A stretch of DNA of 64,000 nucleotides, taken from Frigoriflavimonas asaccharolytica (GTDB taxonomy: Bacteria > Bacteroidota > Bacteroidia > Flavobacteriales > Weeksellaceae). Below the pieces are notes generated by a model, which was given only the letters and a program-made list of their open reading frames with translations, was not told the DNA's origin and made no database searches. Location: assembly GCF_013294015.1 (NCBI RefSeq), contig NZ_JABSNO010000011.1:1-64000 (forward strand), written 5' to 3'. Of this stretch, positions 4,083-39,729 are shown piece by piece. A program made the position numbers and the translations under genes. The stretch's first letter is position 1. Each line of letters begins with the position of its first letter.

Positions 4083-4631
4083 TTAATATGTTTTTATGTT
4101 CAATTCTTGTTGATTTAAAACGGTAGAATTAGCTGGAATATCTTTGTGAATTACGCAACCCGCACCAATAATGCAATTGTCTCCAATCGTAACGCCTTTT
4201 AAAACAACTACATTGCTGCCTAACCAACAATTTTTGCCGATTACAATTGGCGCGGTTGTAAATTCTGAGTGAGAAACCGATAATCCATTTTCATTCCGTA
4301 CATAAGAATGATTGTGATCGTAGAGTTTTACATTTTCGCCAAACAGTGTGTTTTCGCCGATGGAAATGCTCTCTAAGCAGTTGATAGAACAATGGTTATT
4401 AAAAAAAACCTTATTTCCTATTGTTAATTTTGCTTTGTCTTGTAAAATGATGTGAATGTAATTGCGAAAAGAAACATGGTCTCCGATAGAAAATTTAGCA
4501 ATGTTTTTATAGATAATAAATTGATTGTTAATACCTAATTTAAATTGATTACCAAGAAAAATAGAAGGATGTTTATTTAAAATATCTCTCTGTTTTTTTC
4601 GTTGAAATTTTTCAATTAAGGCAGTTATCAT
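4083..4631 (-). CDS. LbH acyltransferase, first gene of block A (start revised)
   Basis: The frame is open upstream to 4871, but that extension overlaps the methyltransferase on the other strand and encodes no recognisable domain. I place the start at the ATG at 4629-4631 (MITALIEKFQRKK), giving 182 residues, because a TATCTTTG promoter box lies just upstream at 4655-4662. Hexapeptide repeats run through the middle (IGNKVFFNNHC, IGENTLFGENVKLYDHNHSY, IGKNCWLGSNVVVLKGVTIG, CIIGAGCVIHKDIPANS). The DHNH histidine is typical of galactoside/maltose-type O-acetyltransferases. It probably acetylates a polysaccharide sugar. Confidence 0.85.
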   Translation of the reverse strand: MITALIEKFQRKKQRDILNKHPSIFLGNQFKLGINNQFIIYKNIAKFSIGDHVSFRNYIHIILQDKAKLTIGNKVFFNNHCSINCLESISIGENTLFGENVKLYDHNHSYVRNENGLSVSHSEFTTAPIVIGKNCWLGSNVVVLKGVTIGDNCIIGAGCVIHKDIPANSTVLNQQELNIKTY

Positions 4632-4654
4632 TAATGTTTTGTTGGATTGAAAAT

Positions 4655-4662
4655 CAAAGATA
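4655..4662 (-). promoter_or_regulatory. Bacteroidota -7 box for block A
   Basis: The minus strand reads TATCTTTG, matching TAnnTTTG, 23 bp upstream of the revised ATG at 4631. I see no clear TTTG -33 element at the usual distance. It is arranged back to back with the plus-strand box at 4695-4702. Confidence 0.55.
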
Positions 4663-4694
4663 CGGAGATTTTTAAAAATCATTAGAATTTTACC

Positions 4695-4702
4695 TATTTT
4701 TG
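4695..4702 (+). promoter_or_regulatory. Bacteroidota -7 box for block B
   Basis: TATTTTTG matches TAnnTTTG. Transcription would start near 4709, leaving only about 10 bases before the GTG start at 4720, so the first message would have an almost absent leader. The -33 element is weak. Confidence 0.55.
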
Positions 4703-4719
4703 CAAAATAAAAAAACACC

Positions 4720-5490
4720 GTGAGCGAATTAAAAAGAGTGGCGAAAACCTTGATTGGATATATAAAACGACCAGATTTATATCCAGAGTTGGGCAGGAAA
4801 ATCATTAAAAATATTTTTAATAGACAATCAGCTTTTAAGGGTAAGGAAAAAACAAATTTATGGGCTTCCAAAATCGCAATCAGCCAAGAGAATGCGATTG
4901 AAAATTTATTTAAAATGCCTTTCGAAAGTTTTAAACAAAAATTTTCTGTAGATTTTCTTGAAGCAGAAAAAGCTCAAAATAATTGTCCTATAAAAATGGG
5001 CGGCGCCGGAGCTTTGGAATTATTATATTCAGCTTGTGAGTTTACGCAGGCGAAAAGTGTTGTGGAAACAGGCGTAGCTTATGGTTGGAGTTCTTTTGCT
5101 TCTTTGCAATCTCTAGAGAAAAGAAACGGAACGTTATACAGTTCAGATATGCCTTATTTAGGACAAGATGGAGATCAATTTGTTGGTTGTATCGTACCAG
5201 AAAAATTGAGGAAAAACTGGAAACTTTTTCGCCATGCAGATCGAGAATCTTTACCAAAAATTTTGAAAGAAACCCAAAAAATAGACGTTGTCCATTACGA
5301 TTCCGACAAATCTTATGAGGGCATGAAATGGGCTTATGAAACACTATATGCGCCACTGAAAATAGGTGGGGTTTTTATTTCTGATGATATTAATGACAAT
5401 TCTGCATTTCAAGATTTTTGCGAGTCTAAAAATATACAACCCACAGTTGTAGATTTTGAGGGGAAATATGTGGGTATTTTTGTAAAATAG
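4720..5490 (+). CDS. Class I SAM-dependent methyltransferase (Methyltransf_24 type)
   Basis: This 256-residue protein starts at GTG 4720. A Rossmann SAM-binding motif is visible at VVETGVAYGWSSFASLQSL (about residue 112), an acidic motif II at LYSSDMPYLG, and a DVVHYDSDKSYEGM segment resembling the metal/substrate-binding aspartates of this clan. It is followed by GGVFISDDI. It probably O-methylates a small molecule or sugar. It is the first gene of block B, 7 bp before the FkbH-like gene, so methylation of the acyl group loaded on the nearby carrier protein is a reasonable but unproven idea. Confidence 0.8.
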   Translation: MSELKRVAKTLIGYIKRPDLYPELGRKIIKNIFNRQSAFKGKEKTNLWASKIAISQENAIENLFKMPFESFKQKFSVDFLEAEKAQNNCPIKMGGAGALELLYSACEFTQAKSVVETGVAYGWSSFASLQSLEKRNGTLYSSDMPYLGQDGDQFVGCIVPEKLRKNWKLFRHADRESLPKILKETQKIDVVHYDSDKSYEGMKWAYETLYAPLKIGGVFISDDINDNSAFQDFCESKNIQPTVVDFEGKYVGIFVK

Positions 5491-5497
5491 AAATACT

Positions 5498-7222
5498 ATG
5501 CATCCAACATTTTCTGAACTTAAAAAAGTTTTAAAACAAAACACAGAAGGTTTAAAAAAAATAAGAGTTGCTCTTTTAGGAGATACGGCAACGCAATTTT
5601 TGAATGTTGCTTTAAAAGGAACTGCAATAAATTCTGGATTTGAACTCGAAATTTTTGAAGCAGATTTCGGCCAAATTTCTCGTCAAGTTTTAGATCCTAC
5701 TTCGGAGTTTTATGAATTTGAAGCCGATTATGCCATCATTTTTGAATCTTCTCATAAATTATTGAGTTCGTATTATAAACAGTACGATTCTCAATTGTCA
5801 TTTGCAGAAAACAAAATACACTACATCGAAGAGATGTATCAAACGATACAAAGTAGAATAAAAAGCAGGATATTATTCTGTAATTTTCCGGGAATTGACA
5901 ATCAAGTTTTTGGTAATTTTTCTCATAAAGTAGAATCATCATTTGTTTTTCAACAGCAGAAAATTAATTATTTACTATCTGAATTAGCCCTAAAAAAGGA
6001 AAACCTTTTTATTGTAGATTTGGTTTCTATTCAGAATAAATGGGGAAGAAACGCTATGTTTTCGCCAAATATTTACATCAATACCGAAATGGTTTTGTCG
6101 CTAGATATTCTGCCAATTGTTGCACAAGATATGATGGGAATTATCTCTTCTTTGGAAGGGAAATTCAAAAAATGTCTGATTTTAGATTTGGACAATACAA
6201 CTTGGGGTGGAATTATTGGTGATGACGGTTTAGAAAATATACAAATCGGAAGTTTGGGAATTGGGAAGGCATTTTCTGAATTTCAATATTGGGCAAAAGC
6301 ATTGCAGAAACGAGGCGTAATTCTCGCGATTTGTAGCAAAAATGATGAAGACAAAGCTAAAGAACCTTTTGAAAAGCACCCAGAAATGGTCTTGAAAATG
6401 GAAGATATTGCTGTTTTTGTGGCTAATTGGGAAAATAAAGCAGATAATATTAGAAAAATTCAAAATATTTTGAATATCGGGTTAGATTCTATGGTTTTTT
6501 TAGATGACAATCCGTTTGAAAGAAATTTGGTAAGAGAAAATTTACCAGAAGTTTGCGTACCAGAATTGCCAGAAGATCCAGCAGATTATTTGGAATATAT
6601 TTATGGATTAAATCTTTTTGAAACGGCAAGTTTCTCGGAAAATGATGCAGAAAGAACCAAGCAATACCAAATAGAAGCCGAAAGAAATGTAGCATTTGAG
6701 AGTTTTACCAACGTAGAAGATTTCTTGAAAAATTTGGAAATGATTTCTGATGTTGAAGCATTTAGCAATTTTTCTAAACCACGAGTTTCACAATTAACGC
6801 AACGTTCTAATCAATTCAATTTAAGAACTGTAAGATTTACGGAGCAAGAAATTGATGAGGTGATGAAATCTGAAAATCATTTTTCGCTCTCTTTTACTTT
6901 GAATGATAGATACGGCGAAAACGGACTTATTTGCGCTGTGATTTTAGAAAAAATAGACGAAAAATCATTGTTCATCAATACTTGGTTGATGAGTTGCCGT
7001 GTTTTGAAAAGAGGAATGGAAAATTTTACCTTAAATAAAATTGTAGAACTCGCTAAAAAGAATGGTTTTGAACAAATTATTGGAGAATATTTACCAACGG
7101 CAAAAAATCAAATGGTAGAGAATCATTACGAAAAACTAGGATTTACTGTTGATGAAAATAATTGGAAACTTACAGTAGAAAATTTTGAACCAACAGAAGT
7201 CTATATAACCACAAAAAACTAA
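5498..7222 (+). CDS. FkbH-like HAD-IIIC acyl-activating enzyme
   Basis: This 574-residue protein has three parts: an N-terminal alpha/beta domain (about 1-215) of the kind seen in long Bacteroides FkbH homologues, a HAD domain with the nucleophile motif LDLDNTTWGG (about 227-236), a CSKND segment (about 278) and FLDDNPFERNLV (about 334-345), and a C-terminal GNAT-like domain (about 400-570). Characterised FkbH enzymes take 1,3-bisphosphoglycerate and load D-glycerate onto a carrier protein instead of acting as free phosphatases. An acyl carrier protein gene follows after 7 bp, which supports this function. The loaded acyl group cannot be proven from sequence. Confidence 0.88.
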   Translation: MHPTFSELKKVLKQNTEGLKKIRVALLGDTATQFLNVALKGTAINSGFELEIFEADFGQISRQVLDPTSEFYEFEADYAIIFESSHKLLSSYYKQYDSQLSFAENKIHYIEEMYQTIQSRIKSRILFCNFPGIDNQVFGNFSHKVESSFVFQQQKINYLLSELALKKENLFIVDLVSIQNKWGRNAMFSPNIYINTEMVLSLDILPIVAQDMMGIISSLEGKFKKCLILDLDNTTWGGIIGDDGLENIQIGSLGIGKAFSEFQYWAKALQKRGVILAICSKNDEDKAKEPFEKHPEMVLKMEDIAVFVANWENKADNIRKIQNILNIGLDSMVFLDDNPFERNLVRENLPEVCVPELPEDPADYLEYIYGLNLFETASFSENDAERTKQYQIEAERNVAFESFTNVEDFLKNLEMISDVEAFSNFSKPRVSQLTQRSNQFNLRTVRFTEQEIDEVMKSENHFSLSFTLNDRYGENGLICAVILEKIDEKSLFINTWLMSCRVLKRGMENFTLNKIVELAKKNGFEQIIGEYLPTAKNQMVENHYEKLGFTVDENNWKLTVENFEPTEVYITTKN

Positions 7223-7229
7223 AAAAATT

Positions 7230-7472
7230 ATGACCAACGAAGAAATTTTAGCAAAACTTAGCGCAATTTTCATAGAAGAATTAGACAATGAAGAAATTTT
7301 ACTTTCCGAAGAAACTACCGCAGAAGATATAGAAGAATGGGATTCTTTGTCGCATATTCATTTGGTGGTAGCTATAGAGAAAGCTTTCAGCATCCGTTTT
7401 GCGTCCGCAGAAATCCAAAGTTGGAATAATCTAGGTGAAATGATAAATTCTATTGCCGCCAAAACGAACTAG
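7230..7472 (+). CDS. Stand-alone acyl carrier protein
   Basis: This 80-residue acidic protein has the phosphopantetheine site EEWDSLSH with Ser39. Helices on both sides and a hydrophobic C-terminal helix match the carrier-protein fold. It is not the housekeeping fatty-acid AcpP: the attachment motif is WDSLSH rather than the DSLD type usual there, and it sits directly after the FkbH-like gene. It would carry the acyl group loaded by FkbH. The next gene's ATG starts immediately after its TAG stop (7470-7472), so all three are translated together. Confidence 0.92.
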   Translation: MTNEEILAKLSAIFIEELDNEEILLSEETTAEDIEEWDSLSHIHLVVAIEKAFSIRFASAEIQSWNNLGEMINSIAAKTN

Positions 7473-8378
7473 ATGGAAAATTATATTGAATATATAATTG
7501 ATAGCATAGAACGTAAAAACCCGAGCCATAGCAAAAAATTAAAAGAAAACCTGAAAGATTTGGGTGAAGAGTATTTTAATTTAGCCAATCCATTTTACGA
7601 AAAGTATGAGGAATATTTAAAATCTCAGCAATTAACTTTAGATTATGGCGTAGATTTTTATCTGAAAATGATAGAAGCGATGCTAGATGAGCGTTTGGCT
7701 TTTATACAAAATGGACGCTATTCCAATACTTCTTTTGAAGAGGTAGAAAAAAACGTGTATGCTACGCCAGAAGTGATGTCTTACCATATGCACGGTTTGG
7801 TTTTAGCACAATTTCTATGGTTTGATCAATACGAACGGATAAAATTTTTCATAGATAATGTTTATAAATATTTTCTTTCGGGTAAAAATTATTTAGAAAT
7901 TGGAGGAGGACACGGTTTGTATATTTATAAAGCGGTAGAAATTTTGCCCATCGCTACTAAATTTGATTTGGTAGATATTAGCGAAAGTTCATTGAAAATA
8001 GCCAAAGGAATTTTAAATAATGATAAAATTAATTTTTATTTAAAAAATATTTTCGATTTCGCTAATGATGATGTCTACGATTTTATAACGATTGGGGAAG
8101 TTCTAGAACATGTAGAAAACCCTAAAGAATTGCTGATGAAAATTGGGAAACATTTGGCGAAAGATGGAGTTTGTTATATGACAACGCCTGTAAATGCGCC
8201 AATGATTGATCATATTTACCTGTTCAATAACGTGCAAGAAATTAGAAATTTAATCAATGAAGCTGGTTTTGAAATAATTGAAGAAAAAACAGTGATTTCA
8301 GAAAAAATAACACCGGAAAAAGCTGCGAAATTTAAAGTTCCTGTGATGTACGCTGCATTTATTAAAAAACAAGATTAA
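7473..8378 (+). CDS. Class I SAM-dependent methyltransferase next to the carrier protein
   Basis: This 301-residue protein has a helical N-terminal region of about 130 residues. A SAM-binding motif I follows (YLEIGGGHGLYIY, about 140-152), then FDLVDISESSLKIA as motif II and GEVLEHVENPKELL as motif IV/post-IV. It starts directly after the acyl carrier protein stop with no gap. In FK520-type pathways an O-methyltransferase acts on the glyceryl-derived group while it is bound to the carrier protein, and this placement suggests the same here. Methylation of a sugar is the alternative. Confidence 0.85.
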   Translation: MENYIEYIIDSIERKNPSHSKKLKENLKDLGEEYFNLANPFYEKYEEYLKSQQLTLDYGVDFYLKMIEAMLDERLAFIQNGRYSNTSFEEVEKNVYATPEVMSYHMHGLVLAQFLWFDQYERIKFFIDNVYKYFLSGKNYLEIGGGHGLYIYKAVEILPIATKFDLVDISESSLKIAKGILNNDKINFYLKNIFDFANDDVYDFITIGEVLEHVENPKELLMKIGKHLAKDGVCYMTTPVNAPMIDHIYLFNNVQEIRNLINEAGFEIIEEKTVISEKITPEKAAKFKVPVMYAAFIKKQD

Positions 8379-8498
8379 AAAGAGGGTAGATCAGTATTTT
8401 TATTCTTTATTAAATTACATACACTAATTAAAAAATGATGCGAAAAATGCTCTAATTCAGCTGAAATCGCTTTGCTACAAACCAAATAGAATCTATTT
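8379..8498. other. 120 bp gap before the MBOAT genes
   Basis: This AT-rich gap separates the carrier-protein genes from the membrane acyltransferase genes. I found no TAnnTTTG box with a proper -33 element, no rho-independent terminator and no small ORF of note. Read-through from the upstream genes is therefore the simplest reading. Confidence 0.5.
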
Positions 8499-9932
8499 AT
8501 GCTGCTGAATTCCTACAGTTTCATTTTGTTTTTCATCATTCTCTTTTTTGCATATTTTCTACTGTGCAAAACATCCAAAGCGCAAAATATTCTGCTGCTT
8601 ATTGCCAGTTATATTTTCTATTGTACTTGGAGTTTTGAATTTATTGCGCTTATTATTTTTTCCACCGGAGTCACCTATTTTGTTGGGAATAAGATAAAAG
8701 AAGCAGCAGGAAACGCGAAACGAAATTGGATGAGATTTGGTGTTTTTTTTGTGCTTATCCAGCTTTTGTATTTTAAATATTTTAATTTTTTTATAGAAAA
8801 TTTTAACGATTTATTGCACGTTTTCGGGATGCAAGATCAGTTGAATGTTTTGAAATTAATTTTACCAATTGGTATTAGTTTTTATTCTTTTAGAATGATT
8901 GGTTATTTGCTAGATATTCGAAATAATAAGTTGAAAGAAATTCCTTCATTTATAAATTATGCCGTATTTATCGCCTTTTTTCCATGTATTATTGCTGGTC
9001 CAATAGATAGAGCAGGAGCTTTCCTGAAAAATTTAGAAATAAAAAGAGCTTTTTCACAATCGCAATTTAGCGATGGTTTGAAGCAAATTCTTTGGGGATT
9101 ATTTAAAAAACTGGTGGTTGCAGATAATATTGCTACGATTACAGGTCCACTTTTCGAAACCTATCATACCTTAAACGGAAGTGCATTATTTGTAGGTGCC
9201 GTTTTGTATTTCATTCAACTATATGCAGATTTTTCGGGTTATACCGATATGGCAATTGGAATATCTAAAATATTAGGCATCAAAATTCAACCCAATTTTA
9301 ATTATCCATTATTTGCGCAAAACGTTGCAGATTATTGGCGAAGATGGCATATTTCTTTAACGGGTTGGCTCACGGAATATGTTTTCACACCATTATCCAT
9401 CAACTTTAGAGATTATGGAAAATACGGACTAATTTCTGCAATTATCATCAATTTTCTAGCGGTAGGATTTTGGCACGGAGCAGAATGGCATTATGTGGTG
9501 CATGGTTTGGTAAGTGGAATAATGTTTATTCCTATTATTTGGCGTGGAAAAATGAGTAAAAAAATTAAATCTGAACATACCATCATTCCAAGCCTCTCAG
9601 AAATGAAGAATATTCCAATTACTTTCGTACTTTTTTCTTTGCTTACGGTGTTATTTTTTGTCACAGATATGGAAATGGCGGTTAATTATTATAAAGGAAT
9701 TTTTTCTTTATCATTTTTTCAAATTCCGAATTTCCCAATTCAGAAAGAAATTGTTTTGCTAATTCTTTTGATGATGATTTTGGAATGGCTGCAAAGAGAT
9801 AAGGAATTTGCCATAAAAGAGCTGTTTGCGAAGCGAAGTATTATCCTAAGATGGGGATTTTATTACGTTTTAATTTTTCTCGTATTTCTATTTTATATTG
9901 CACCAAAAGGTTTTATTTACGCACAATTTTAA
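8499..9932 (+). CDS. MBOAT-family membrane O-acyltransferase, first copy
   Basis: This 477-residue polytopic protein is in the AlgI/DltB branch of membrane-bound O-acyltransferases. Many hydrophobic segments are visible. The central DYWRRWHISLTGWLTEYVF motif and the catalytic His326 in VGFWHGAEW are characteristic. AlgI/DltB proteins move acyl groups across the cytoplasmic membrane to a periplasmic glycan. The start LLNSYSFILFFIILFF is typical of the family. An SGNH-like gene follows after 2 bp, the usual DltB-DltD or AlgI-AlgJ style pairing. The paralogue at 10911-12344 has the same length, and its histidine is also residue 326. Confidence 0.93.
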   Translation: MLLNSYSFILFFIILFFAYFLLCKTSKAQNILLLIASYIFYCTWSFEFIALIIFSTGVTYFVGNKIKEAAGNAKRNWMRFGVFFVLIQLLYFKYFNFFIENFNDLLHVFGMQDQLNVLKLILPIGISFYSFRMIGYLLDIRNNKLKEIPSFINYAVFIAFFPCIIAGPIDRAGAFLKNLEIKRAFSQSQFSDGLKQILWGLFKKLVVADNIATITGPLFETYHTLNGSALFVGAVLYFIQLYADFSGYTDMAIGISKILGIKIQPNFNYPLFAQNVADYWRRWHISLTGWLTEYVFTPLSINFRDYGKYGLISAIIINFLAVGFWHGAEWHYVVHGLVSGIMFIPIIWRGKMSKKIKSEHTIIPSLSEMKNIPITFVLFSLLTVLFFVTDMEMAVNYYKGIFSLSFFQIPNFPIQKEIVLLILLMMILEWLQRDKEFAIKELFAKRSIILRWGFYYVLIFLVFLFYIAPKGFIYAQF

Positions 9933-9934
9933 AT

Positions 9935-10873
9935 ATGAAAAAATCTATTTTGCGCTTGATGCTATTTTCGGTTTTGCCACTTTTGGTAATTTGTTTTGCC
10001 GTATACATTACGGGAAAAAAAACCGACGATTTCTATAAGCGGTTCACATCGCCACAGCAAAATTCTTTAATTCTTGGTAGTTCTAGAGCAGCTGGAATGA
10101 ATCCTGCAATATTGGATAGCATTACAAAAAGTAAATTCCCGAAGGTAAAATTGTACAATTATGCTTTTACATGGGCGCATTCACCGTTTGGTCCGAAATA
10201 TTTGGAATCTATTGAGAAAAAAATTCAGCCGAATTCAAAGGATGGATTATTTATAGTAACCGTAGAACCCACAGCTTTGATGGTGGATAGAAGCCAAGCA
10301 GATCGTCCAGAAAATTTTGTAGAAAATGATAAATCTGTGGCAAGAACTTCTATGGTTGCCATCAATCCCAACGTAGAATATTTATGGGAAAGTTTTGAAT
10401 TTTCTATCACCAAAGAATTGAATAATAAAATTATACCACCAAAAGATCCTATCGGAAAAATGGAAATTCTAGATAATGGAAAAATACAAACTACCATTAT
10501 TAGGCAAGTTTCAGATAAAACCAGAGCAGAGTGGAATGATAATGCCATGAAATTATTAAAGATTAAAATGGCAGGATTGAAAACGTCTAAAATTAGATTG
10601 CAATATTTGGCCAAAACCATAGATTTTTTGAAAAAGCATGGTAAAGTTGTGGTTCTAAGAATACCAATGGCGAAAGTTCCTTATGATATTGAAAACGATA
10701 CGTATCCAGATTTTGATGCCCAAATGAATAAAATTTGTTCGCAAAAAAAGGTGTCTTATAAAAATTACAACCTCTCTGAAAATAATTTTAAATATGTAGA
10801 TGAGGTACATTTGGATACAAAATCAATGAATCAGTTTTGTGAAATTTTAGCGAAAGATATTATTTCAAATTAG
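9935..10873 (+). CDS. SGNH-like acyltransferase partner, first copy (start revised)
   Basis: The frame extends upstream to 9851 inside the MBOAT gene. I chose the ATG at 9935 because it follows the MBOAT stop by 2 bp and opens a proper signal-anchor (KKSILRLMLFSVLPLLVICF). The 312-residue protein has the nucleophile motif LGSSRAAG (Ser49/Ser50) and a C-terminal Asp289-x-x-His292, the catalytic pattern of SGNH hydrolases. It resembles DltD and AlgJ/AlgX in logic: a membrane-anchored periplasmic enzyme that takes the acyl group from the MBOAT partner and puts it on the glycan. Overall similarity to named families is low, so I leave it unnamed. Confidence 0.78.
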   Translation: MKKSILRLMLFSVLPLLVICFAVYITGKKTDDFYKRFTSPQQNSLILGSSRAAGMNPAILDSITKSKFPKVKLYNYAFTWAHSPFGPKYLESIEKKIQPNSKDGLFIVTVEPTALMVDRSQADRPENFVENDKSVARTSMVAINPNVEYLWESFEFSITKELNNKIIPPKDPIGKMEILDNGKIQTTIIRQVSDKTRAEWNDNAMKLLKIKMAGLKTSKIRLQYLAKTIDFLKKHGKVVVLRIPMAKVPYDIENDTYPDFDAQMNKICSQKKVSYKNYNLSENNFKYVDEVHLDTKSMNQFCEILAKDIISN

Positions 10874-10910
10874 CAAATAAGAAGTTTATTTAAAAACAAA
10901 AAAAATATAA

Positions 10911-12344
10911 ATGTTATTTAATTCTATTTCTTTTGCAATCTTTTTGCCCATTGTATTCTTACTGTATTGGTTTGTATTTAAGAATAATAAGAAGGCGCAG
11001 AATATTTTGCTTTTAGTCTCAAGCTTTTATTTTTATGCTTGTTGGGATTGGCGTTTTTTATTTTTACTAATGTTTTCTATAGCTTTAGATTATTTTTCGG
11101 GTTTGCAAATAGAGAAAAGTAAGAACAACAAAACAGCAAAATTTTGGCTGGTTACTAGCATTGCTATAAATCTTGGTTTCCTTGGTTTTTTTAAATATTA
11201 TAATTTTTTTATAGATAGTTTTGCAGATTTAATAGGAGGTTTTGGGTTTGTAATTCATCCTTGGACTTTAAAAATTATACTTCCTATTGGTATTTCATTT
11301 TATACGTTCCATGGTTTATCCTACATTATAGATGTGTACAAGAAAAAAATAAAAGCGGAGAAAAACCCAATTGATTATGCACTATTCGTAAGTTATTTTC
11401 CTTTGCTTGTAGCTGGTCCTATAGAAAGAGCCACACATCTTTTGCCTCAGGTAAAAAAAATCCGAATATTCAATTACGAACAAGCCGCAAATGGTATTCG
11501 ACAAATTTTGTGGGGATTATTCAAAAAAATGGTAATTGCAGATAATTGTGCACCAATTGTAAATGAAATTTTTGCCAACCACGATCAAGAACCTGCGAGC
11601 AGATTGGTTTTAGGAGTACTATTATTTGCCTTCCAGATATATGGAGATTTTTCTGGCTATTCAGATATCGCATTAGGAACATCCAGATTGTTCGGGATGG
11701 AATTGTTGAAAAACTTTGCTTTCCCTTATTTTTCTAGAGATATTGCAGAATTTTGGCGAAGATGGCACATCTCACTGTCTTCTTGGTTTAGAGATTATGT
11801 GTATTTTCCTTTAGGTGGAAGTAGAGGTGGAATGTGGATGAAGATTCGCAATACTTTCGTCATCTTTTTAGTGAGCGGATTTTGGCATGGCGCCAACTGG
11901 ACTTTTATAGTTTGGGGAGGTTTGAATGCCTTATTTTTTCTACCACTTTTAATCAGAGATAAAAATAGAGATAACTTAGAAGTTGTAGCAATGGGAAGAT
12001 TGTTACCAAATTTCCGAGATTTCTTTAATATTGTACTCACATTTGCACTTGTTTGCTTCGCGTGGATTTTCTTTCGGGCAGAAAGTATGACGGTTGCTTT
12101 GCAATACATTGGCGATATTTTTAGCAGCAGTATTTTGCAATTTCCAAAGCCAATTCCTAAAAAAGAAATTGCGCTTATTTTGGTGATGCTTTGTATAGAA
12201 TGGAGCAATAGAGCGCAAAACCATGGTTTAGAAATTGAAAGGTGGAATCCTTGGGTAAGAAGATTTCTGTATGCCTTTATCATGGTTTTAATTTTAGTTT
12301 TTGCGAATTTTGGCAACAATGAATTTATATATTTTCAATTTTAA
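10911..12344 (+). CDS. MBOAT-family membrane O-acyltransferase, second copy
   Basis: This 477-residue AlgI-like protein has DIAEFWRRWHISLSSWFRDY and catalytic His326 in SGFWHGANW. The DYVYFPLGGSRGG segment matches the AlgI/DltB consensus better than the first copy does, so this may be the more ancestral one. It is expected to be a multi-pass inner-membrane protein that passes an acyl group to the periplasm. It follows the first SGNH gene after 37 bp and is followed by a second SGNH gene after 3 bp, so the pair has been duplicated as a unit or acquired twice. Confidence 0.94.
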   Translation: MLFNSISFAIFLPIVFLLYWFVFKNNKKAQNILLLVSSFYFYACWDWRFLFLLMFSIALDYFSGLQIEKSKNNKTAKFWLVTSIAINLGFLGFFKYYNFFIDSFADLIGGFGFVIHPWTLKIILPIGISFYTFHGLSYIIDVYKKKIKAEKNPIDYALFVSYFPLLVAGPIERATHLLPQVKKIRIFNYEQAANGIRQILWGLFKKMVIADNCAPIVNEIFANHDQEPASRLVLGVLLFAFQIYGDFSGYSDIALGTSRLFGMELLKNFAFPYFSRDIAEFWRRWHISLSSWFRDYVYFPLGGSRGGMWMKIRNTFVIFLVSGFWHGANWTFIVWGGLNALFFLPLLIRDKNRDNLEVVAMGRLLPNFRDFFNIVLTFALVCFAWIFFRAESMTVALQYIGDIFSSSILQFPKPIPKKEIALILVMLCIEWSNRAQNHGLEIERWNPWVRRFLYAFIMVLILVFANFGNNEFIYFQF

Positions 12345-12347
12345 GAC

Positions 12348-13319
12348 ATGAAAAAATTCGTATTTAAACTCGTTGCATGGATCAGCTTATTTCTGATTTT
12401 AGGATTGTGTCTTTTATTTTCAAATAAATATAAATTTTACGGAAATGGGACAATTCGCCAGAAAGTAGACTTTTACAAAAAAAATGGCGAAAAATACAAT
12501 GCTATTATTATGGGAAGCAGCAGAATGTACCGCCATTTAGATCCTGTAGTTTTAGATTCTGCAACACATCATCAAATAAAAGCATACAACATGGCTACTG
12601 GTGGAAGTTTTTATACAGAAAGCAGATATATTCTCAGACAACTAGAACTGAATAAAAATATAAAGTATGTATTTTTTGAAATTCAAGGTGTTTTACCCTT
12701 AGAAAGAAATGCATTATCTACAAAAGCTTTGTATTATCATGATCTTCCCTCTACCATTTTTGAAAGCAAATATTATTCAGAGACTAAAGATTGGGCGGGA
12801 GTTTACACTGCAGTGGAACATTACTTCATCAATATTTTTTATTTAAAAAAATTAGATCAAACAGATTATTTTATTGATCAAGGTTCTGCCGATTATAGAG
12901 ATGGCTATTATCCTTTGGAAAAAGAATACAACAGATCTACCAGCGTGAAAACACAAAGAGATACTTACGTAAAAGATACCATGCAATTGTATTCACAAAG
13001 AAATTTTGTATTGCAACCCAAAAAAATGAATACTGCTTGGGAAAACGACATTCAATTATTGATAAAAGAATGCGACAAGAGAGGTGTAAAATTAGTGCTT
13101 GTTTCGCAACTTTTTACGGAACCTTATGATATGTCTTTCCTTAAAAAAAATTCTAAAACAAAAGTATTGGATTTTACAGCTAGAAAGAAATTCAAAGATT
13201 TTTATACCAGCAAAAATGCGCAAGACAATGGACATTTAAACCAACTTGGTGCTAGAAAATTTAGTAAAATATTTGCAGATAGTGTAAATATATATTTGAA
13301 TGAGATAAGAAAACAATAA
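12348..13319 (+). CDS. SGNH-like acyltransferase partner, second copy
   Basis: This 323-residue protein has an N-terminal membrane anchor (FVFKLVAWISLFLILGLCLL). It carries the motif IIMGSSRMYRHLDP (Ser57/Ser58) and a C-terminal Asp293-x-x-His296 in DNGHLNQLG. The layout matches the 9935-10873 protein although the sequences are diverged outside the motifs. By analogy with DltD-type proteins it probably completes acyl transfer to a glycan in the periplasm. It follows its MBOAT partner by 3 bp. Confidence 0.8.
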   Translation: MKKFVFKLVAWISLFLILGLCLLFSNKYKFYGNGTIRQKVDFYKKNGEKYNAIIMGSSRMYRHLDPVVLDSATHHQIKAYNMATGGSFYTESRYILRQLELNKNIKYVFFEIQGVLPLERNALSTKALYYHDLPSTIFESKYYSETKDWAGVYTAVEHYFINIFYLKKLDQTDYFIDQGSADYRDGYYPLEKEYNRSTSVKTQRDTYVKDTMQLYSQRNFVLQPKKMNTAWENDIQLLIKECDKRGVKLVLVSQLFTEPYDMSFLKKNSKTKVLDFTARKKFKDFYTSKNAQDNGHLNQLGARKFSKIFADSVNIYLNEIRKQ

Positions 13320-13355
13320 AAAATATTTGCAAATCATGCATCAAGTATTTTTCAG

Positions 13356-13363
13356 TATTTTTG
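13356..13363 (+). promoter_or_regulatory. Candidate -7 box before the GtrB-like gene
   Basis: TATTTTTG matches TAnnTTTG about 60 bp before the ATG at 13422. A TTTG lies at 13326-13329, about 26 bp upstream, somewhat farther than the usual 19-21. This may give the second half of block B its own transcription. Confidence 0.4.
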
Positions 13364-13421
13364 CAGTCATAAAAAGCAAACCGTCAAGCAAATTAAAACC
13401 AAGCATCGGTAGATATTTTTA

Positions 13422-14396
13422 ATGAATTTAACTATGAAAAAAATTTACTTTATCATTTCCTGTTATAATGAGCAAGATAATTTGCTCATCCTTACGGAAC
13501 GTTTAAAGGAAGAATTGCATTCTATTTTATTCGAAAGTTTTGAGCTTGTATTTGTAAACGATGGATCCAAAGATAAAACTTTAGCACTGCTGCAAGAGCT
13601 TCAAAGAGAGGAAGATAGAATTGTAATCATCAACCAAAGCAAAAATTTTGGACATGAAATTGCAATGACGGCAGGATTAAATTACGTAGCAGAACAAAAT
13701 ATAGAAGCAGACCACGAGTTTGCGGTTATTTTTATGGATGCAGATATGCAACATCCACCAGAAATTGCAATAGAAATGGTGCAACTATGGCAAAATAAGC
13801 ACAAATTAATTCTTACCCAAAGAACAGATAATGAAGACAAAGGTTTGCGCTATCGCTTTTTAGGAAACACCTATTATTGGATTTTAAACACCCTTTCTGA
13901 TGTGAAAATCCCGAGAAATATGCCAGATTTTCGCTTGCTAGATAAAAAATATGTTCTGTGGATCAATAGTTTGAACGAAACGGATAGAATGTTCCGCGGA
14001 ATGTTGTCTTTGGTAGGTTTGCAAAATGCGCACATCATTCCATTTGTAGCGCCAAAAAGAAATGCTGGTAAAAGCAATTATAATTTTTTCAATTTATATA
14101 AATTAGCCATAGATAGTGTGATACAATTTTCTATAAAACCCTTAAGAATAGCCACTTTTTTTGGAATTCTAGGTTGTATATTTTCTATCTTTTTCCTGGC
14201 ATTTTCTATTTACAGCAGCTACATCAATCACGAGCCAAAAACTGGGTTTTTAACGCTATTATCCGTTATGATTTTCTTTTGTTCGCTCATTATTTTCTTT
14301 TTAGGAATTATTGGAGAATATATCGGCAGAATACATATCGAGGTAAAAAATAGACCCTTATATTTTAATGAAGTTTTGAAGAATGAAAAAGAGTAA
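13422..14396 (+). CDS. Polyprenyl-phosphate glycosyltransferase, GtrB/DPM1-like
   Basis: This 324-residue protein has a GT2 domain with YFIISCYNEQDNL at the start, FVNDGSKDKT near residue 46, a DADMQHPPE metal site near residue 109 and the NETDRMFRGM segment near residue 187. Two C-terminal transmembrane helices follow (about 245-270 and 278-305). This is the layout of GtrB and ArnC-like enzymes, which make undecaprenyl-phosphate-linked sugars for periplasmic transfer. An alternative ATG is at 13434. It overlaps the next gene by 14 bp. That gene is a polytopic protein that could use the lipid-linked sugar. Confidence 0.9.
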   Translation: MNLTMKKIYFIISCYNEQDNLLILTERLKEELHSILFESFELVFVNDGSKDKTLALLQELQREEDRIVIINQSKNFGHEIAMTAGLNYVAEQNIEADHEFAVIFMDADMQHPPEIAIEMVQLWQNKHKLILTQRTDNEDKGLRYRFLGNTYYWILNTLSDVKIPRNMPDFRLLDKKYVLWINSLNETDRMFRGMLSLVGLQNAHIIPFVAPKRNAGKSNYNFFNLYKLAIDSVIQFSIKPLRIATFFGILGCIFSIFFLAFSIYSSYINHEPKTGFLTLLSVMIFFCSLIIFFLGIIGEYIGRIHIEVKNRPLYFNEVLKNEKE

Positions 14397-15723
14397 TATT
14401 CCCTATTTTGTCTTAATTTTCGTCAATATTGCAATTGCTCTAAGTTGCTATTTTTATCCTGTTTTTAGAGACGAATTTTATTATTTGAACAAAGTAAATT
14501 ATCCAAATGCAATACAAGAGTATATAATCTCGTATTACTTTGGAAATGCCCGAATCGGTCAGTTTTTCTCTAATTTGGTTTCAAGAAATATTTTTTTAGA
14601 AGTTCTTTTTGGCGTTTTGTTGTTCAATGCATTTATAACAGCATTATTTTTAAATATCTATCGCAAATTACCAGATTTTAGAGATGTAGAAATGGTGAAA
14701 AAATTTCTTTGGATAGCAGGATTTTTTATTTTGTTTATCAATTATTTTGGAGAAATGTTTTATTACACTCCTTTTAGTACCAATTACACTTTTACACATG
14801 TTTTTTATTTGCTGTATGTTTATCTTTTAAGTGAGTATTTTCTGCACGGGAATAAAGCTTTGCTGAAAAAAACATCCTATTTTGTACTACCTATTTTTGG
14901 AGTATTTATAGGAATGAGCAATGAACATGTGCCGCCAATTTTGGTAGGAATTTCCTTCCTTTTTGCTCTAATATATTATCTAAAAAATAAGAAATTGCCG
15001 GATTTCAGATTATTGATTACTCCTTTATTTATCATAGTTGGGTACGCACTATTGTTTTTCGCACCTTCAAATAAAATAAAGCAAGAGCTTGTAGGAAAAT
15101 CTGTTTTGGACATCGGATTTAGCGATTATATAGCAAATTGGGTAAAGATTCTAAAGACTTATTTTTATTACAATCAAGAATTACTAGGATTGGTATTTTT
15201 TGTAATTGTAGCTATTGTTGTTTGGAATTCAAAATTTAAAAAAGTAATCTACGAAAGAGAGAAAATCTTATTCTGGATATTACTTTTTGTGCTCCCATTG
15301 TGCATTGTGGCGGTTTCTCCACTTATCGGTACAAGATTACTTTTCTTTTCAAACAGTATTTTGTTGATTGTTGTGTACCAAATTATATTAAAACTAGGAA
15401 ATGAGAAGTTCAAAAATACAGCGCATGTTTTTTTATGCGGTTTCCTTATCGTATTTTCTACCATCAGTATTTTATTTACCTTTAAAGCCAATCAGAATTA
15501 TGATTTAATCGTGACGGAAATTTTGCAAAAGCGAAATCAATCCAAAGACATCGTATTGGATAATCAATTATATTATTTCCAATCAAGTTTTGGAAATTAT
15601 TTGAATAGGAAAATTTTTCTAGAATCTGGTGAAGATTACATTGATAAAGACCCAGCAAAAGATACTACGGAAGAGAATAATCTGAAATTGTTTTACAATC
15701 TTCACTCTATAAAAGAAAAATAA
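14383..15723 (+). CDS. Polytopic membrane protein, probable GT-C glycosyltransferase (DUF6056-like)
   Basis: This 446-residue protein has around ten hydrophobic segments. After the first helix comes an acidic loop (PVFRDEFYYLNKVNYP). GT-C enzymes usually place their catalytic acidic residues there. A soluble C-terminal tail of about 70 residues follows. It is translationally coupled to the GtrB-like gene (14 bp overlap). By analogy with GtrB plus serotype-specific Gtr pairs, it may transfer a sugar from undecaprenyl phosphate to a periplasmic glycan. The family assignment comes from general appearance, so the enzymatic role is inference. Confidence 0.65.
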   Translation: MKKSNIPYFVLIFVNIAIALSCYFYPVFRDEFYYLNKVNYPNAIQEYIISYYFGNARIGQFFSNLVSRNIFLEVLFGVLLFNAFITALFLNIYRKLPDFRDVEMVKKFLWIAGFFILFINYFGEMFYYTPFSTNYTFTHVFYLLYVYLLSEYFLHGNKALLKKTSYFVLPIFGVFIGMSNEHVPPILVGISFLFALIYYLKNKKLPDFRLLITPLFIIVGYALLFFAPSNKIKQELVGKSVLDIGFSDYIANWVKILKTYFYYNQELLGLVFFVIVAIVVWNSKFKKVIYEREKILFWILLFVLPLCIVAVSPLIGTRLLFFSNSILLIVVYQIILKLGNEKFKNTAHVFLCGFLIVFSTISILFTFKANQNYDLIVTEILQKRNQSKDIVLDNQLYYFQSSFGNYLNRKIFLESGEDYIDKDPAKDTTEENNLKLFYNLHSIKEK

Positions 15724-16568
15724 TGGTAAAAAAACTCATTATCAATGCCGACGATCTTGGATTTTCTTTGGGAGTGAATCATGCCATTCTTAAAGCAAAT
15801 ACGGAAGGTTTTCTATCGCACGCAAGTTTGATGGCGAATACAGAATATTTTGAAGATGCCGTGAAAAATGTAATTCCAAATGCTAAAAATCTTCAGATTG
15901 GTGTTCATGTCAATTTAACCTGCGCAAAAGCATTATTTCCCAGTGCTATGCTATCAGAAAAAGGAATTCTTAATAATACTTTTATAAGCTTACTTTTTAA
16001 AAATAAAAGCAAAAAAGTACTGGAATCTATAGAAAAAGAGATTGAATTACAGATTTTAAAAATTAAAAATAGCGGAATAGAAATTTCGCATATTGATGGG
16101 CACGAACACGTTCATGTAATTCCGTCCATCAATAAAATCGTAAAAAAATTAGCCAAAAAACACGGGATCCCGAGAATTAGAGAAATCAACGAAGGTCTTT
16201 TTGAAAGTTGGAAATTTAATGGAGAAACTGCTTCAATAAGCAATGTAATTAAACTTCTATTATTAAAATTTCTTTCTTTTTTTAACGATAATTCTGGTAA
16301 AATTGGGTTTTATTCAATGTTAAATACTTGTGAAATAAATAGCGAAAACTTGTTCAGTTTTTTAAAGAAAAGCAAGGCGTATGAAACCGTAGAAGTGATG
16401 TTGCACCCTGCTTTAAGCGATTTAGATTCACCAGAATATTACCAAAATTTAGACCCACGTTTCGTTGCGTTTTTTGAAAATCCTCATCGTAAATCTGAAT
16501 TCGATTTATGCTTTAATACTCAATTTAAAGAATATGAAATTGCCATTAACAGGTCTTCGAATAAATAA
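15723..16568 (+). CDS. ChbG/YdjC-family carbohydrate deacetylase
   Basis: This 281-residue protein opens with KKLIINADDLGFSLGVNHAI, the metal-binding Asp-Asp motif of YdjC/ChbG proteins. GVHVNLTC (about residue 62) and HIDGHEHVHVIP (about 120) supply the zinc-binding histidines. ChbG removes acetyl groups from N-acetylated sugars. The ATG overlaps the preceding TAA (TAATG), so it is coupled to the membrane glycosyltransferase genes, and it may deacetylate a lipid-linked or polymer-linked HexNAc. No signal peptide is visible, so it probably acts in the cytoplasm. Confidence 0.88.
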   Translation: MVKKLIINADDLGFSLGVNHAILKANTEGFLSHASLMANTEYFEDAVKNVIPNAKNLQIGVHVNLTCAKALFPSAMLSEKGILNNTFISLLFKNKSKKVLESIEKEIELQILKIKNSGIEISHIDGHEHVHVIPSINKIVKKLAKKHGIPRIREINEGLFESWKFNGETASISNVIKLLLLKFLSFFNDNSGKIGFYSMLNTCEINSENLFSFLKKSKAYETVEVMLHPALSDLDSPEYYQNLDPRFVAFFENPHRKSEFDLCFNTQFKEYEIAINRSSNK

Positions 16569-35358: not shown

Positions 35359-36567
35359 TTAGTTCGAAATTTGGGTTGAATCTAATAATATCGGCGTCCA
35401 CATTTGATCTGACCCCGTAATATTAATATTTATTATGCGATGTTCTTTATAAAATACTTCAGTTGTAAAGTTTTTTTGTAGGGTAATAGTGATCGTGTAA
35501 GAACCTTTAGAAAAGTTGAAGTTTTTAATTTTAAATTGAAATTTCTTTCTCTGTCCTGGTGTATAATCCACAGTTATATCTTGATCTGCTGGTATAAATT
35601 CAGCAATAGCTCTTTGTTCTTTGTCGTAAACAACAAAAGAAAAATGAGGCATTTTACGAAGATTTATATTCTCTAATTCTATTTCAAGTAAAAAATCTGT
35701 ATTCCATTGCACATCATAACAGCTATTTCTTATAGTATTATCAACAATATGAGAAGTGAGTAATTTTACTTCCTTGGTATCAAAAACAATTTCACTGTTT
35801 TCATCGGTTTTAAACATGTCATAGTAGGCATCTATTCCCTTTCCTGTATCTTTTCCTTGATAGGAAACTTTTCCATGGTCCATTAAAATAATTTCGTTAC
35901 AAATTCTAGAAACCATTGGCATACTATGCGAAACGAATATTACAGCGGTATGTGGTAAAAGTTTATCAATTTTGTTGAAACATTTTAAAGTAAACCCTAA
36001 ATCTCCTACTGCCAAAACTTCATCTATAATTAAAACATCTGGTTCTAAATGAGAAGCAACTGCAAAACCTAAGCGAACTTTCATTCCAGAAGAGTAATTT
36101 TGTACTGGCATGTCTATAAATTCTTCAATTTCAGAAAATGCAATAATAGAATCTATCTTTGCTTCTACTTCCTTTTTAGTAAACCCCAAAATAGAAGCGT
36201 TGTTGTAGATGTTTTCTCTGCCAGAAAGTATGGGATTAAAACCTGCACCCAATTCTATCAATGCACCTACTTTTCCTTTCATGATGATTTCTCCTTCATC
36301 TGGATTGTAAAGTCCGTTTAAAACCTTTAATAGGGTGCTTTTTCCTGCGCCATTGTGGCCAATTAAACCAATGCATTCGCCTCTTCTTAATTCAAAACTA
36401 ACATCTTTTACCGCCCAAAATTCTTTTGGACGCAATGTTTTTTTTATAGGTACACCAAAACTACTTTTGATAATATCTAATGCCCCATATTTTAAAGATG
36501 ATTTTAAGTCTAAAGAAAACTTTTTAGATACATTTTTTACCGATACAAGTACTTCATTCTCTTCCAT
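35359..36567 (-). CDS. Polysaccharide ABC exporter ATPase with C-terminal carbohydrate-binding domain (Wzt-like)
   Basis: This 402-residue protein has an N-terminal ABC domain: Walker A GHNGAGKSTLLKVLNG (about 69-84), signature NYSSGMKVRLGFAVA (about 158) and Walker B LIIDEVLAVGD (about 180). An extra C-terminal domain of about 150 residues resembles the Wzt domain that recognises modified chain ends in O9a-type export. The late KNFNFSKGSYTITITL segment fits its beta-sandwich. Its ATG overlaps the permease stop (TAATG). It indicates ABC-dependent export. Confidence 0.93.
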   Translation of the reverse strand: MEENEVLVSVKNVSKKFSLDLKSSLKYGALDIIKSSFGVPIKKTLRPKEFWAVKDVSFELRRGECIGLIGHNGAGKSTLLKVLNGLYNPDEGEIIMKGKVGALIELGAGFNPILSGRENIYNNASILGFTKKEVEAKIDSIIAFSEIEEFIDMPVQNYSSGMKVRLGFAVASHLEPDVLIIDEVLAVGDLGFTLKCFNKIDKLLPHTAVIFVSHSMPMVSRICNEIILMDHGKVSYQGKDTGKGIDAYYDMFKTDENSEIVFDTKEVKLLTSHIVDNTIRNSCYDVQWNTDFLLEIELENINLRKMPHFSFVVYDKEQRAIAEFIPADQDITVDYTPGQRKKFQFKIKNFNFSKGSYTITITLQKNFTTEVFYKEHRIININITGSDQMWTPILLDSTQISN

Positions 36568-37409
36568 TATCCTCCAATTTTTTCGATGATGATCGGCATA
36601 GATTTTCTAAAAATAACCAAACCTATTAGTAGTAGTGAAAAACTTAACCCAAAAATGACAACTGCGTATATCACATTTTCTGGAGCGTAGCCTAATAATG
36701 TATTTCTTGCATCATTAAATAAAAATGTAAGTGGATTAAGCTCAAATAAAGTTTTAAAAAATCCTGCGTGAGGCACTGCATAAACTACTGGAGTAAAATA
36801 CATCAGAAAAGGAACTGCTGTTGTGATAATTTTAGCAACATCTGTATAAATCAATCCAATAGGTGTGAGGATTAATCCAATCGACATCGATAGACAGATG
36901 ATAACAATTAATGATAGGAAGAAATATAGCAAATTTAGGTTAGGCAGTACTCCATAAATTCCTAAAAAAATAGCAATAAGTACCAATTTTAAAATTAGAT
37001 TAAATCCCATCTTATAAATCCCAGACATTAAAAGTGCTTCTTTTGGAAAATTTATTTTAGATAAAATTCCTTTGGCACTATTTACAGAGGTTAGTGGTAT
37101 CAACATGCTTTCTGTGAAAATACTCCAGACCGTAGTGCCAATTATTACAAATAATACATAAGGCATATTTCCATCTGCATTTACATTCACTGTACCAGAA
37201 TTATTTAAAAAAATCCAAACTAAGGAATTTACGATTATGGGTGCAAATGCCCAGAAAAATCCTAAAAAAGATTGACGATATTGTCCTTGCAAATCACGTT
37301 TAGCGAGTTGATAGGCCAAAAAATTGGAAGATTTGATATCAGAAAACATTCCTTTTAATTCTTGAAAAAAATGGGTTTGTTTATCTGAAGAATAAATTGC
37401 GGTTTTCAA
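36567..37409 (-). CDS. Polysaccharide ABC exporter permease (Wzm-like)
   Basis: This 280-residue protein has about six transmembrane segments and the ABC-2 family start KSSNFLAYQLAKRDLQGQYRQSFLGFFWAF, in which KRDLQGQYRQSFLG is the usual amphipathic segment. The start codon is TTG at 37407-37409; the first in-frame ATG would remove 21 residues. It forms the export channel with the Wzt-like ATPase, whose gene overlaps by 1 bp. A TATTTTTG box sits 24 bp upstream, so the exporter may have its own promoter within block C. Confidence 0.92.
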   Translation of the reverse strand: MKTAIYSSDKQTHFFQELKGMFSDIKSSNFLAYQLAKRDLQGQYRQSFLGFFWAFAPIIVNSLVWIFLNNSGTVNVNADGNMPYVLFVIIGTTVWSIFTESMLIPLTSVNSAKGILSKINFPKEALLMSGIYKMGFNLILKLVLIAIFLGIYGVLPNLNLLYFFLSLIVIICLSMSIGLILTPIGLIYTDVAKIITTAVPFLMYFTPVVYAVPHAGFFKTLFELNPLTFLFNDARNTLLGYAPENVIYAVVIFGLSFSLLLIGLVIFRKSMPIIIEKIGG

Positions 37410-39348: not shown

Positions 39349-39729
39349 TTATAAATTAATAATACGTTTGTAATTTAAAGATTTTTCGCCGAAATTGACG
39401 AGAATTCCTAATTTTTTGTTGGTTGCCTTTAAATAATTTTGCAATTGTTTTGAAAAATTGTCATGCATAAATACTGCGGACTTTATTTCAACTATAATTT
39501 CATCAAAACACAGAAAATCTACTCGATATGTCTTATTTAATTTTTCTCCATTGTAATAGATATCTAACTTTTTCTCTCGTTCAAATGGTATTTTCTGTTT
39601 AATAAATTCCTTTGCTAAAACTTCAGAATAAACTGCTTCCAAAAAACCACTTCCCAAACCAGAATGAATCTCCATACAAATTCCTACAATTCTATAGCTT
39701 TCTTCCTTAAAAATTATTTTTTCGTCCAC
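39349..39729 (-). CDS. GxxExxY protein (PD-(D/E)XK nuclease-like)
   Basis: This 126-residue protein begins at GTG 39727-39729. It has GICMEIHSGLGSGFLEAVYSEVL, the GxxExxY signature, followed by YRVDFLCFDEIIVEIKSA, which matches the D...ExK core of PD-(D/E)XK nucleases, and the ending NFGEKSLNYKRIINL. The family is common as scattered copies in Bacteroidota, and its function is not established. It separates rfbB from rfbA and is bracketed by inverted repeats. The right repeat includes the rfbB stop codon, so the gene looks like an insertion into an older rfbB-rfbA operon. Confidence 0.88.
   Translation of the reverse strand: MDEKIIFKEESYRIVGICMEIHSGLGSGFLEAVYSEVLAKEFIKQKIPFEREKKLDIYYNGEKLNKTYRVDFLCFDEIIVEIKSAVFMHDNFSKQLQNYLKATNKKLGILVNFGEKSLNYKRIINL

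Follow-up and report, generated by a model that had tools for sequence, protein, structure and literature searches.

Introduction

The closest described counterparts of the gene set reported here are the Dlt system for D-alanylation of teichoic acids (DltA-DltC-DltB-DltX-DltD) and the PatA/PatB-type systems, which depend on acetyl-CoA. According to a 2025 account (PMC12148441), the membrane-bound O-acyltransferase (MBOAT) PatA moves acetyl from acetyl-CoA to the tyrosine of a C-terminal FxYxxF motif, there is evidence for onward acetyl transfer from PatA to PatB, and Dlt follows the same acyl-tyrosine logic through DltX; it also says that, outside Dlt, MBOAT/SGNH pathways have no carrier protein. 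In solved DltB (PMC11035591), helix HC binds the carrier DltC through Met302, Val305, Ile306 and Met309. Here we describe a locus within 64,000 nucleotides of Frigoriflavimonas asaccharolytica DNA (Bacteroidota, Weeksellaceae; contig NZ_JABSNO010000011.1, positions 1 to 64,000, the whole of which is called the window below), where genes for an FkbH-type enzyme, an acyl carrier protein (ACP) and a methyltransferase (MTb) precede two MBOAT/SGNH pairs. Judging from sequence comparisons, it is likely that FkbH, the ACP, MBOAT1 and SGNH1, possibly with MTb, form a carrier-protein-dependent envelope acylation module acting on a periplasmic glycan, and that the second pair is separate from it.

FkbH enzymes are otherwise met in natural-product pathways. 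Glyceryl-ACP has a precedent in tetronate pathways, and for suomilide and varlaxin the loading of glycerate by FkbH and its O-methylation on the carrier have been proposed. No description of an FkbH-ACP pair feeding an MBOAT was found in the literature searched, the coverage of which left out most subscription journals, and no paper with FkbH was among the best 20 of 11,557 matches when the name was combined with O-antigen terms; a paper could be hidden among such a number. An earlier note on this DNA, made from the letters alone, had proposed a Dlt-like pathway for both MBOAT/SGNH pairs and pointed to methylglycerate in Campylobacter, a link on which our literature search returned nothing.

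Gene order, protein families and motifs

The genes concerned follow one another on the forward strand:

4720-5490, forward strand: MTa, a Methyltransf_24 protein (PF13578), 7 bp upstream of FkbH
5498-7222, forward strand: FkbH-type HAD-IIIC enzyme (PF21211, TIGR01686)
7230-7472, forward strand: free-standing ACP (PF00550), phosphopantetheine site Ser39
7473-8378, forward strand: MTb, a SAM (S-adenosylmethionine) methyltransferase (PF13489), its first base directly after the ACP stop
8499-9932, forward strand: MBOAT1, putative carrier-protein type (PF03062), His326, Tyr474 in a C-terminal FIYAQF
9935-10873, forward strand: SGNH1, predicted N-terminal membrane helix and periplasmic SGNH domain (fold from a model), GSS with Ser50, DEVH
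10911-12344, forward strand: MBOAT2, LGG-type (PF03062), His326, C-terminal FIYFQF
12348-13319, forward strand: SGNH2, partner of MBOAT2, motifs GSS with Ser58 and DNGH
13422-14396, forward strand: GT2 gene, PgfS/undecaprenyl-phosphate-transferase type, below cut-offs

In the raw sequence the gaps from MTa through the GT2 gene measure 7, 7, 0, 120, 2, 37, 3 and 102 bp. The start of SGNH1 is most likely 9935, 2 bp past MBOAT1, and not 9851. The succession of genes from FkbH to the second pair, the carrier serine and the intact catalytic residues of both MBOATs and both SGNH proteins had all been read from the letters in the earlier note; the open reading frames (ORFs) lie where it placed them and the family scans agree. 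A PF03062 search of the whole 3.43-Mb assembly found two MBOATs only, and because both are at this locus and the gene order is conserved in relatives, the arrangement is not one of chance.

Both the FkbH_N and the FkbH domain exceed curated cut-offs, TIGR01686 with 313 bits against 147 and PF21211 also by far. Asp230, Asp232, Cys279 and Cys500 are invariant in all 16 alignment rows. The N-terminal and HAD part matches PDB 3slr (BF1531, E 3e-138), the sole solved sequence relative of this FkbH, which is named 'uncharacterized protein' and for which the module suggests a possible function. The ACP is barely over the PF00550 cut-off (23 vs 20.8 bits); its DSL serine, Ser39, is invariant in 17/17 rows, and its position 7 bp downstream of FkbH makes it a free-standing cognate carrier alongside the loader. 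FkbH is a candidate for loading glyceryl onto this ACP, most likely from 1,3-bisphosphoglycerate, and MTb may be the enzyme that O-methylates the ACP-bound acyl group. A profile search of the PDB with MTb returned nothing under E 0.001.

MBOAT1 and MBOAT2 both exceed the PF03062 cut-off and do not reach that of the DltB equivalog TIGR04091 (173.7 and 156 bits, respectively, vs 375). The only solved relatives of MBOAT1 found by profile search are DltB (E 1e-39), and the best structural match of its predicted model is likewise DltB (6bug). SGNH1 and SGNH2, 20 % identical to each other in alignment A4, had no Pfam match at E 0.001. The AlphaFold model of SGNH1 (mean pLDDT 83.6) has a single helix at the N-terminus, followed by a domain of SGNH/GDSL type; Foldseek returned no match below E 0.001, and the fold is read from VIA-align Z values of 11-13 (GDSL-like lipase 12.7, PatB 10.9, OatA 10.8) and from the motifs. 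A profile search of the PDB with SGNH1 gave nothing under E 0.1, and DltD was not among the matches listed for it by Foldseek and VIA-align, which shows nothing either way. The GxS serine and the DxxH Asp and His are invariant in 18/18 rows, and SGNH1 is proposed to be the final acyltransferase of the module. The hallmarks of MBOAT-SGNH systems are present, i.e. the catalytic histidine, a C-terminal FxYxxF and an SGNH partner with Ser, Asp and His.

The segment corresponding to helix HC of DltB aligns directly after WRRWHISL in a profile alignment. In MBOAT1 this docking segment reads EYVFTPLSINFRDYGK and is DltB-like; alignment A5, whose 15 rows include MBOAT1, has VFTPLxIxFRDxxK without variation. 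In MBOAT2 it reads DYVYFPLGGSRGG and has an LGG motif.

Conservation of the gene set

FkbH was sought in 197 Weeksellaceae genomes and 24 hits were obtained, including the window's own. An ACP, an MBOAT and an SGNH protein stood in the same run in 14/14 of the relatives with a close FkbH (73-78 % identity; the ACP of L029 was masked by an overlapping ORF in one listing and visible in others). Nine hits were not close homologues, and six of these (L041-L046, 33-38 % identity) were fetched; they have no MBOAT and are another use of FkbH-ACP, with a VOC protein (methylmalonyl-CoA-epimerase/glyoxalase superfamily) before FkbH in 4/6 and a short-chain dehydrogenase/reductase (SDR) after the ACP in 3/6.

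Two of the close relatives, L031 and L039, have bare four-gene islands, FkbH-ACP-MBOAT-SGNH, any methyltransferase being absent from the module. By eye, their neighbours within 7-10 kb are housekeeping or unrelated genes (e.g. Tex-like, peroxiredoxin-like and isocitrate-dehydrogenase-like, and one GNAT-like in L031), and no glycosyltransferase or other glycan gene was recognised over that distance. The acceptor of the bare islands must be encoded elsewhere. MTa is found in 12 of the 14 family loci, not in the bare islands, and is probably part of the glycan locus, not of the acyl module.

The comparison was extended to 97 distinct FkbH loci, comprising the 14 family loci, 78 on named genome contigs and 5 from other Bacteroidota. 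The named loci are the best 80 of 571 and hence lean to close relatives; L057 and L060 (taken for duplicates of L035 and L038, whose contigs are equally long) and L047-L051 (short copies of L132-L136) were excluded from the counts. An ACP was encoded no more than 3.5 kb from FkbH and in the same orientation in 89/97 loci (63/67 of those with full flanks). A non-LGG MBOAT lay within 6 kb in 69/97 (51/67), the MBOAT of L113 at 6.5 kb being counted as absent and that of L136, among the 69, being unreadable at the motif. Conserved co-occurrence of FkbH, ACP and MBOAT, which the earlier note had named as a check of its proposal, was thus found in the close family and in the wider set. On an FkbH tree of 104 rows, 71 with a non-LGG MBOAT, the linkage was clustered, with 20 changes compared to 28.4 after shuffling (0/500 as low).

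By record name, the FkbH-ACP-MBOAT loci come from Bacteroidota, Bacillota, Verrucomicrobiota, Thermodesulfobacteriota, Spirochaetota and Omnitrophota, and MBOAT-bearing FkbH records include Clostridium, Lachnospiraceae, Verrucomicrobiota, Desulfovibrio, Treponema and Omnitrophota; since many records are metagenome bins, taxon names may err.

Two arrangements among the family loci deserve mention. L027 (1-19001) has three MBOAT/SGNH pairs and two ACPs in one locus, namely an LGG-type pair, an ACP-MBOAT1-type pair and a pair with FkbH-ACP-MaoC-SDR-MBOAT, as if two acyl groups were made together. In L028 an acyltransferase-3 gene (10985-12013; PF01757, scanned in L028) lies between MTa and FkbH, and one is found in the same place in L030 and L036.

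Which MBOAT draws on the ACP

An independent survey covered 148 Bacteroidota genomes, 55 of which had an MBOAT; 77 stretches were fetched and yielded 81 MBOATs, both window MBOATs being left out. All eight with an ACP upstream within 2.5 kb lacked LGG, and the 73 without an upstream ACP comprised 67 with LGG, 5 without it and 1 unreadable (Fisher 4e-8). Two of these five are near-LGG by eye (IGG in L235, AGKK in L242). The FkbH loci provided 87 MBOATs, duplicates L057 and L060 included: with an ACP directly upstream, 63 were LGG-less, 1 had LGG and 1 was unreadable; otherwise, 9 were LGG-less, all with an ACP elsewhere in the locus, and 13 had LGG. On the MBOAT tree the LGG state changes about 12 times, at least 6 of them by supported branches. 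Of 70 LGG-less MBOATs from FkbH loci, 67 show both a loose shuttle pattern and the histidine pattern; two of the exceptions (L121, L122) are ORFs ending early and one lacks the histidine pattern only.

By this sign MBOAT1 would be the ACP user and MBOAT2 not. Because MBOAT2 has LGG and the ACP-linked MBOATs of the survey lack it, MBOAT2 and SGNH2 are probably an ordinary acetyl-CoA O-acetylation system, separate from the ACP route. MBOAT2 has a 73 % identical orthologue in only 2 of the 14 family loci (L027, L032), LGG-type neighbours are also found in the named loci L052, L054 and L056, and MBOAT2 is an optional neighbour of the module. A route in which the ACP serves both pairs, as the earlier note had it, was rejected as the leading reading on account of this LGG motif and the rarity of the orthologue. 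The Dlt-like character of the first pair is strongly supported by co-conservation, the docking segment, the fused shuttle motif and the exchange of loaders described next.

In the eight ACP-linked loci of the survey an AMP-binding ligase (572-607 aa) was beside the ACP in seven and fused to it in one, L243, the ACP part of which (residues 534-602, with a DSL motif) was not listed by Pfam. The ligases were identified by Pfam in L220, L229 and L243 and by homology in the others. An AMP-binding-like ORF of more than 400 aa was absent by phmmer from 90/97 FkbH loci, the others being L029, L035, L068, L069, L073, L133 and L136, and no AMP-binding family match was obtained in the ten proteins scanned at 4083-14396 of the window. 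FkbH looks like an alternative loader of the same kind of machine, since the AMP-ligase holds the FkbH slot in other ACP-MBOAT loci.

The loci L220, L223, L226, L229, L232, L233 and L238, with AMP-ligase, ACP and LGG-less MBOAT in other Bacteroidota, make up a further putative carrier-fed MBOAT system distinct from the classical Dlt operon; a weak GDSL match is adjacent, checked in L220 only. L243 (1492-6999) and L234 (1287-2441) encode 384-aa MBOATs without the FxYxxF tail, that of L243 near the AMP-ligase fused to ACP and a second AMP-ligase.

The acyl group and its tailoring

In relatives the slot between FkbH and MBOAT holds a MaoC-like hydratase and a 3-oxoacyl-ACP-reductase-like SDR, or a VOC protein, with or without MTb (one example of each family was scanned). 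Kaistella chaponensis (L060) has the MaoC and SDR set, and Chryseobacterium sp. Leaf404 (L057) has FkbH, ACP, MBOAT and SGNH genes and no MTb. The earlier remark that no dehydrogenase is nearby holds for the window module and fails for these relatives, where SDR and MaoC occupy the same slot. When same-strand genes up to 4 kb from FkbH were counted in the 69 loci with a non-LGG MBOAT, 28 loci had no tailoring gene, 19 had MaoC and SDR, 7 MTb and VOC, 7 VOC, 5 MaoC, and one each MTb with MaoC and SDR, MTb, and SDR. This suggests lactyl or epimerised C3 groups in the relatives: dehydration of glyceryl-ACP would give enol/pyruvyl-ACP, and its reduction lactyl-ACP. A similar glyceryl-to-lactyl conversion has been proposed for the bryostatin starter unit.

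Among the 23 Weeksellaceae loci, MaoC, SDR or VOC accompanied 0/8 of the MBOATs at least 70 % identical to MBOAT1 (window included) and 14/15 of the remainder (Fisher 1.8e-5, with one independent pair on supported branches). A pair of MBOAT and SGNH that recognises the acyl group would be expected to show such a match of subtype and tailoring; relatedness weakens the argument.

There is a real, if lesser, chance that the route through ACP, MBOAT1 and SGNH1 is correct and the group is plain D-glyceryl, MTb methylating a sugar or acting elsewhere. In seven loci that have none of MTb, MaoC, SDR and VOC between FkbH and MBOAT, the MBOAT shares 75-78 % identity with MBOAT1, and the modules of L031 and L039 are without any methyltransferase. 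A role for MTb on the carrier is favoured by its abutting the ACP, by the recurrence of its homologues between FkbH and ACP in other lineages (48 % identical in L028, L033 and L034, others in further families) and by the carrier O-methylation proposed for suomilide and varlaxin. O-methylation in the window module is plausible and unproven, since the window alone among the eight MBOAT1-like loci has MTb; the methyl part of the earlier proposal is accordingly the uncertain one.

Surrounding genes

The module is flanked by glycosyltransferase and sugar-nucleotide genes, judged by eye from the ORF lists of the window. The GT2 gene opens a stretch downstream of it (13422-16568) that also encodes a polytopic protein of 446 aa and a deacetylase of YdjC type; together they may serve the periplasmic glycosylation of side branches. 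ABC exporter genes at 35359-37409, Wzm/Wzt-like by eye, suggest a glycan completed in the cytoplasm before export, and a small GxxExxY-looking protein (by eye only) is encoded amid sugar-nucleotide genes at 39349-39729. Promoter-like sites numbered 48 vs 50 in shuffles and terminator-like sites 2 vs 5, and they were not used as evidence.

Discussion

In the mechanism we propose for the module, FkbH would load the phosphopantetheine of the ACP with a C3 acyl unit. This unit is most likely D-glyceryl, derived from 1,3-bisphosphoglycerate, and MTb may O-methylate it while it is carrier-bound. The acyl-ACP would dock at the cytoplasmic face of MBOAT1, His326 of which would catalyse transfer across the membrane to Tyr474 in its own FIYAQF motif. 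The acyl group would then move on to Ser50 of the membrane-anchored SGNH1, which would esterify a periplasmic glycan, probably the polysaccharide of the surrounding locus.

Several observations weigh against this proposal. The model of MBOAT1 is weak at the docking segment, with pLDDT below 50 at residues 285-304, and as helix HC is not visible there, only the overall DltB fold was used. L103 has an ACP-adjacent MBOAT of LGG type. The link between LGG and ACP is partly inherited: nine independent pairs lie on supported branches, about three of which agree and none oppose, the others being uninformative, and the sign test is not significant. MTb is absent from the other seven loci with MBOAT1-like MBOATs. 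All six fetched remoter family loci have an ACP and no MBOAT, 28/97 FkbH loci are without a non-LGG MBOAT within 6 kb, and 15 of the 67 with full flanks are without any MBOAT within that distance. Selected neighbours in 8 of these 15 include ketosynthase III (L061, L068), acyltransferase-3 (L092), hexapeptide (L125), FrhB-like (L075, L088) and other proteins; because MBOAT-less loci carry such other partners, FkbH-ACP pairs are also used otherwise.

A rival reading is that FkbH and ACP, with or without MTb, supply a cytoplasmic transferase that would, e.g., attach D-glyceroyl to an amino sugar as an amide, both MBOAT/SGNH pairs being ordinary O-acetyltransferases next door that depend on acetyl-CoA. 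D-Glyceroyl amides on Qui4N are described for O-antigens, in Pragia fontium, in a table of PMC10609480. According to a family scan a hexapeptide acyltransferase is encoded within the window locus, as one is beside FkbH in L125, and FkbH-ACP pairs without an MBOAT do exist. We nevertheless consider this unlikely in view of the bare islands, the 14/14 conservation in the family and the segment of MBOAT1, which is that of ACP-adjacent MBOATs and not LGG.

Little weight is also given to a decoration that is not a glycerate, FkbH loading another phospho-acyl or C3 unit. Our searches yielded no activity-tested member of this FkbH branch, 3slr being without a named function; the full-length FkbH architecture and the invariant Asp230, Asp232 and Cys500 speak for glycerate, as would the MaoC and SDR tailoring in relatives, which is chemically sensible from glyceryl. 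A small natural-product pathway (tetronate or methoxymalonate) is most improbable, even though FkbH, ACP and methyltransferase are common to such pathways and a ketosynthase III gene comes after or near the ACP in L061 and L068, given the four-gene MBOAT/SGNH islands and, as the earlier note had also seen, no polyketide synthase nearby: the ten proteins scanned at 4083-14396 gave no ketosynthase family match, and by eye the ORF lists of the window showed nothing resembling a polyketide synthase.

Returning to the carrier-fed module, we lean, on balance, towards regarding it as one member of a widespread class of envelope acylation systems, as yet without a name, with FkbH in the place of DltA. 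In such systems glycolytic 1,3-bisphosphoglycerate would prime the ACP, the C3 acyl group would be determined by exchangeable tailoring cassettes (none; methyltransferase; MaoC and SDR, for lactyl; VOC epimerase), and an ACP-specific MBOAT with its fused shuttle motif would, together with an SGNH partner, transfer the group to surface glycans. Carrier-fed MBOAT/SGNH transfer would then not be confined to Dlt, because FkbH-ACP-MBOAT loci span several phyla. If true, carrier-protein-dependent envelope acylation extends beyond D-alanylation, contradicting the statement in PMC12148441, to which the family appears to be an exception. Esters of glycerate, O-methylglycerate or lactate on bacterial glycans would also gain a genetic explanation, and the presence or absence of LGG after WRRWHxSL would serve as a simple sequence rule to predict if a bacterial MBOAT uses an ACP.

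Compared to Dlt, the module has the same parts, i.e. loader, free carrier, MBOAT and SGNH protein, and MBOAT1 has a DltB-like carrier-docking segment and DltB as its only solved sequence relatives. It differs in having FkbH and not the AMP ligase DltA, in bearing FxYxxF fused to the MBOAT and not on DltX, in its didermal host and in staying below the TIGR04091 cut-off; it may work like Dlt, yet is not filed as Dlt because there is no DltA and the DltB model cut-off is unmet. The AMP-ligase-ACP-MBOAT loci share the ACP directly before an LGG-less MBOAT, whereas their loader is AMP-binding and they form a separate branch of the MBOAT tree. The tetronate, methoxymalonate, suomilide and varlaxin pathways have FkbH and ACP (with O-methyltransferase in some) and the proposed loading of glycerate from 1,3-bisphosphoglycerate in common with it, whereas no polyketide synthase, non-ribosomal peptide synthetase or ketosynthase was seen in the module and its endpoint would be a membrane acyltransferase. 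With the PatA/PatB-type systems, of which MBOAT2/SGNH2 is probably one, it shares FxYxxF at the MBOAT C-terminus and the SGNH partner, and differs in that MBOAT1 is without LGG and placed behind an ACP. As read from their sequences, MBOAT1 and SGNH1 join a Dlt-style carrier to a shuttle motif fused as in PatA.

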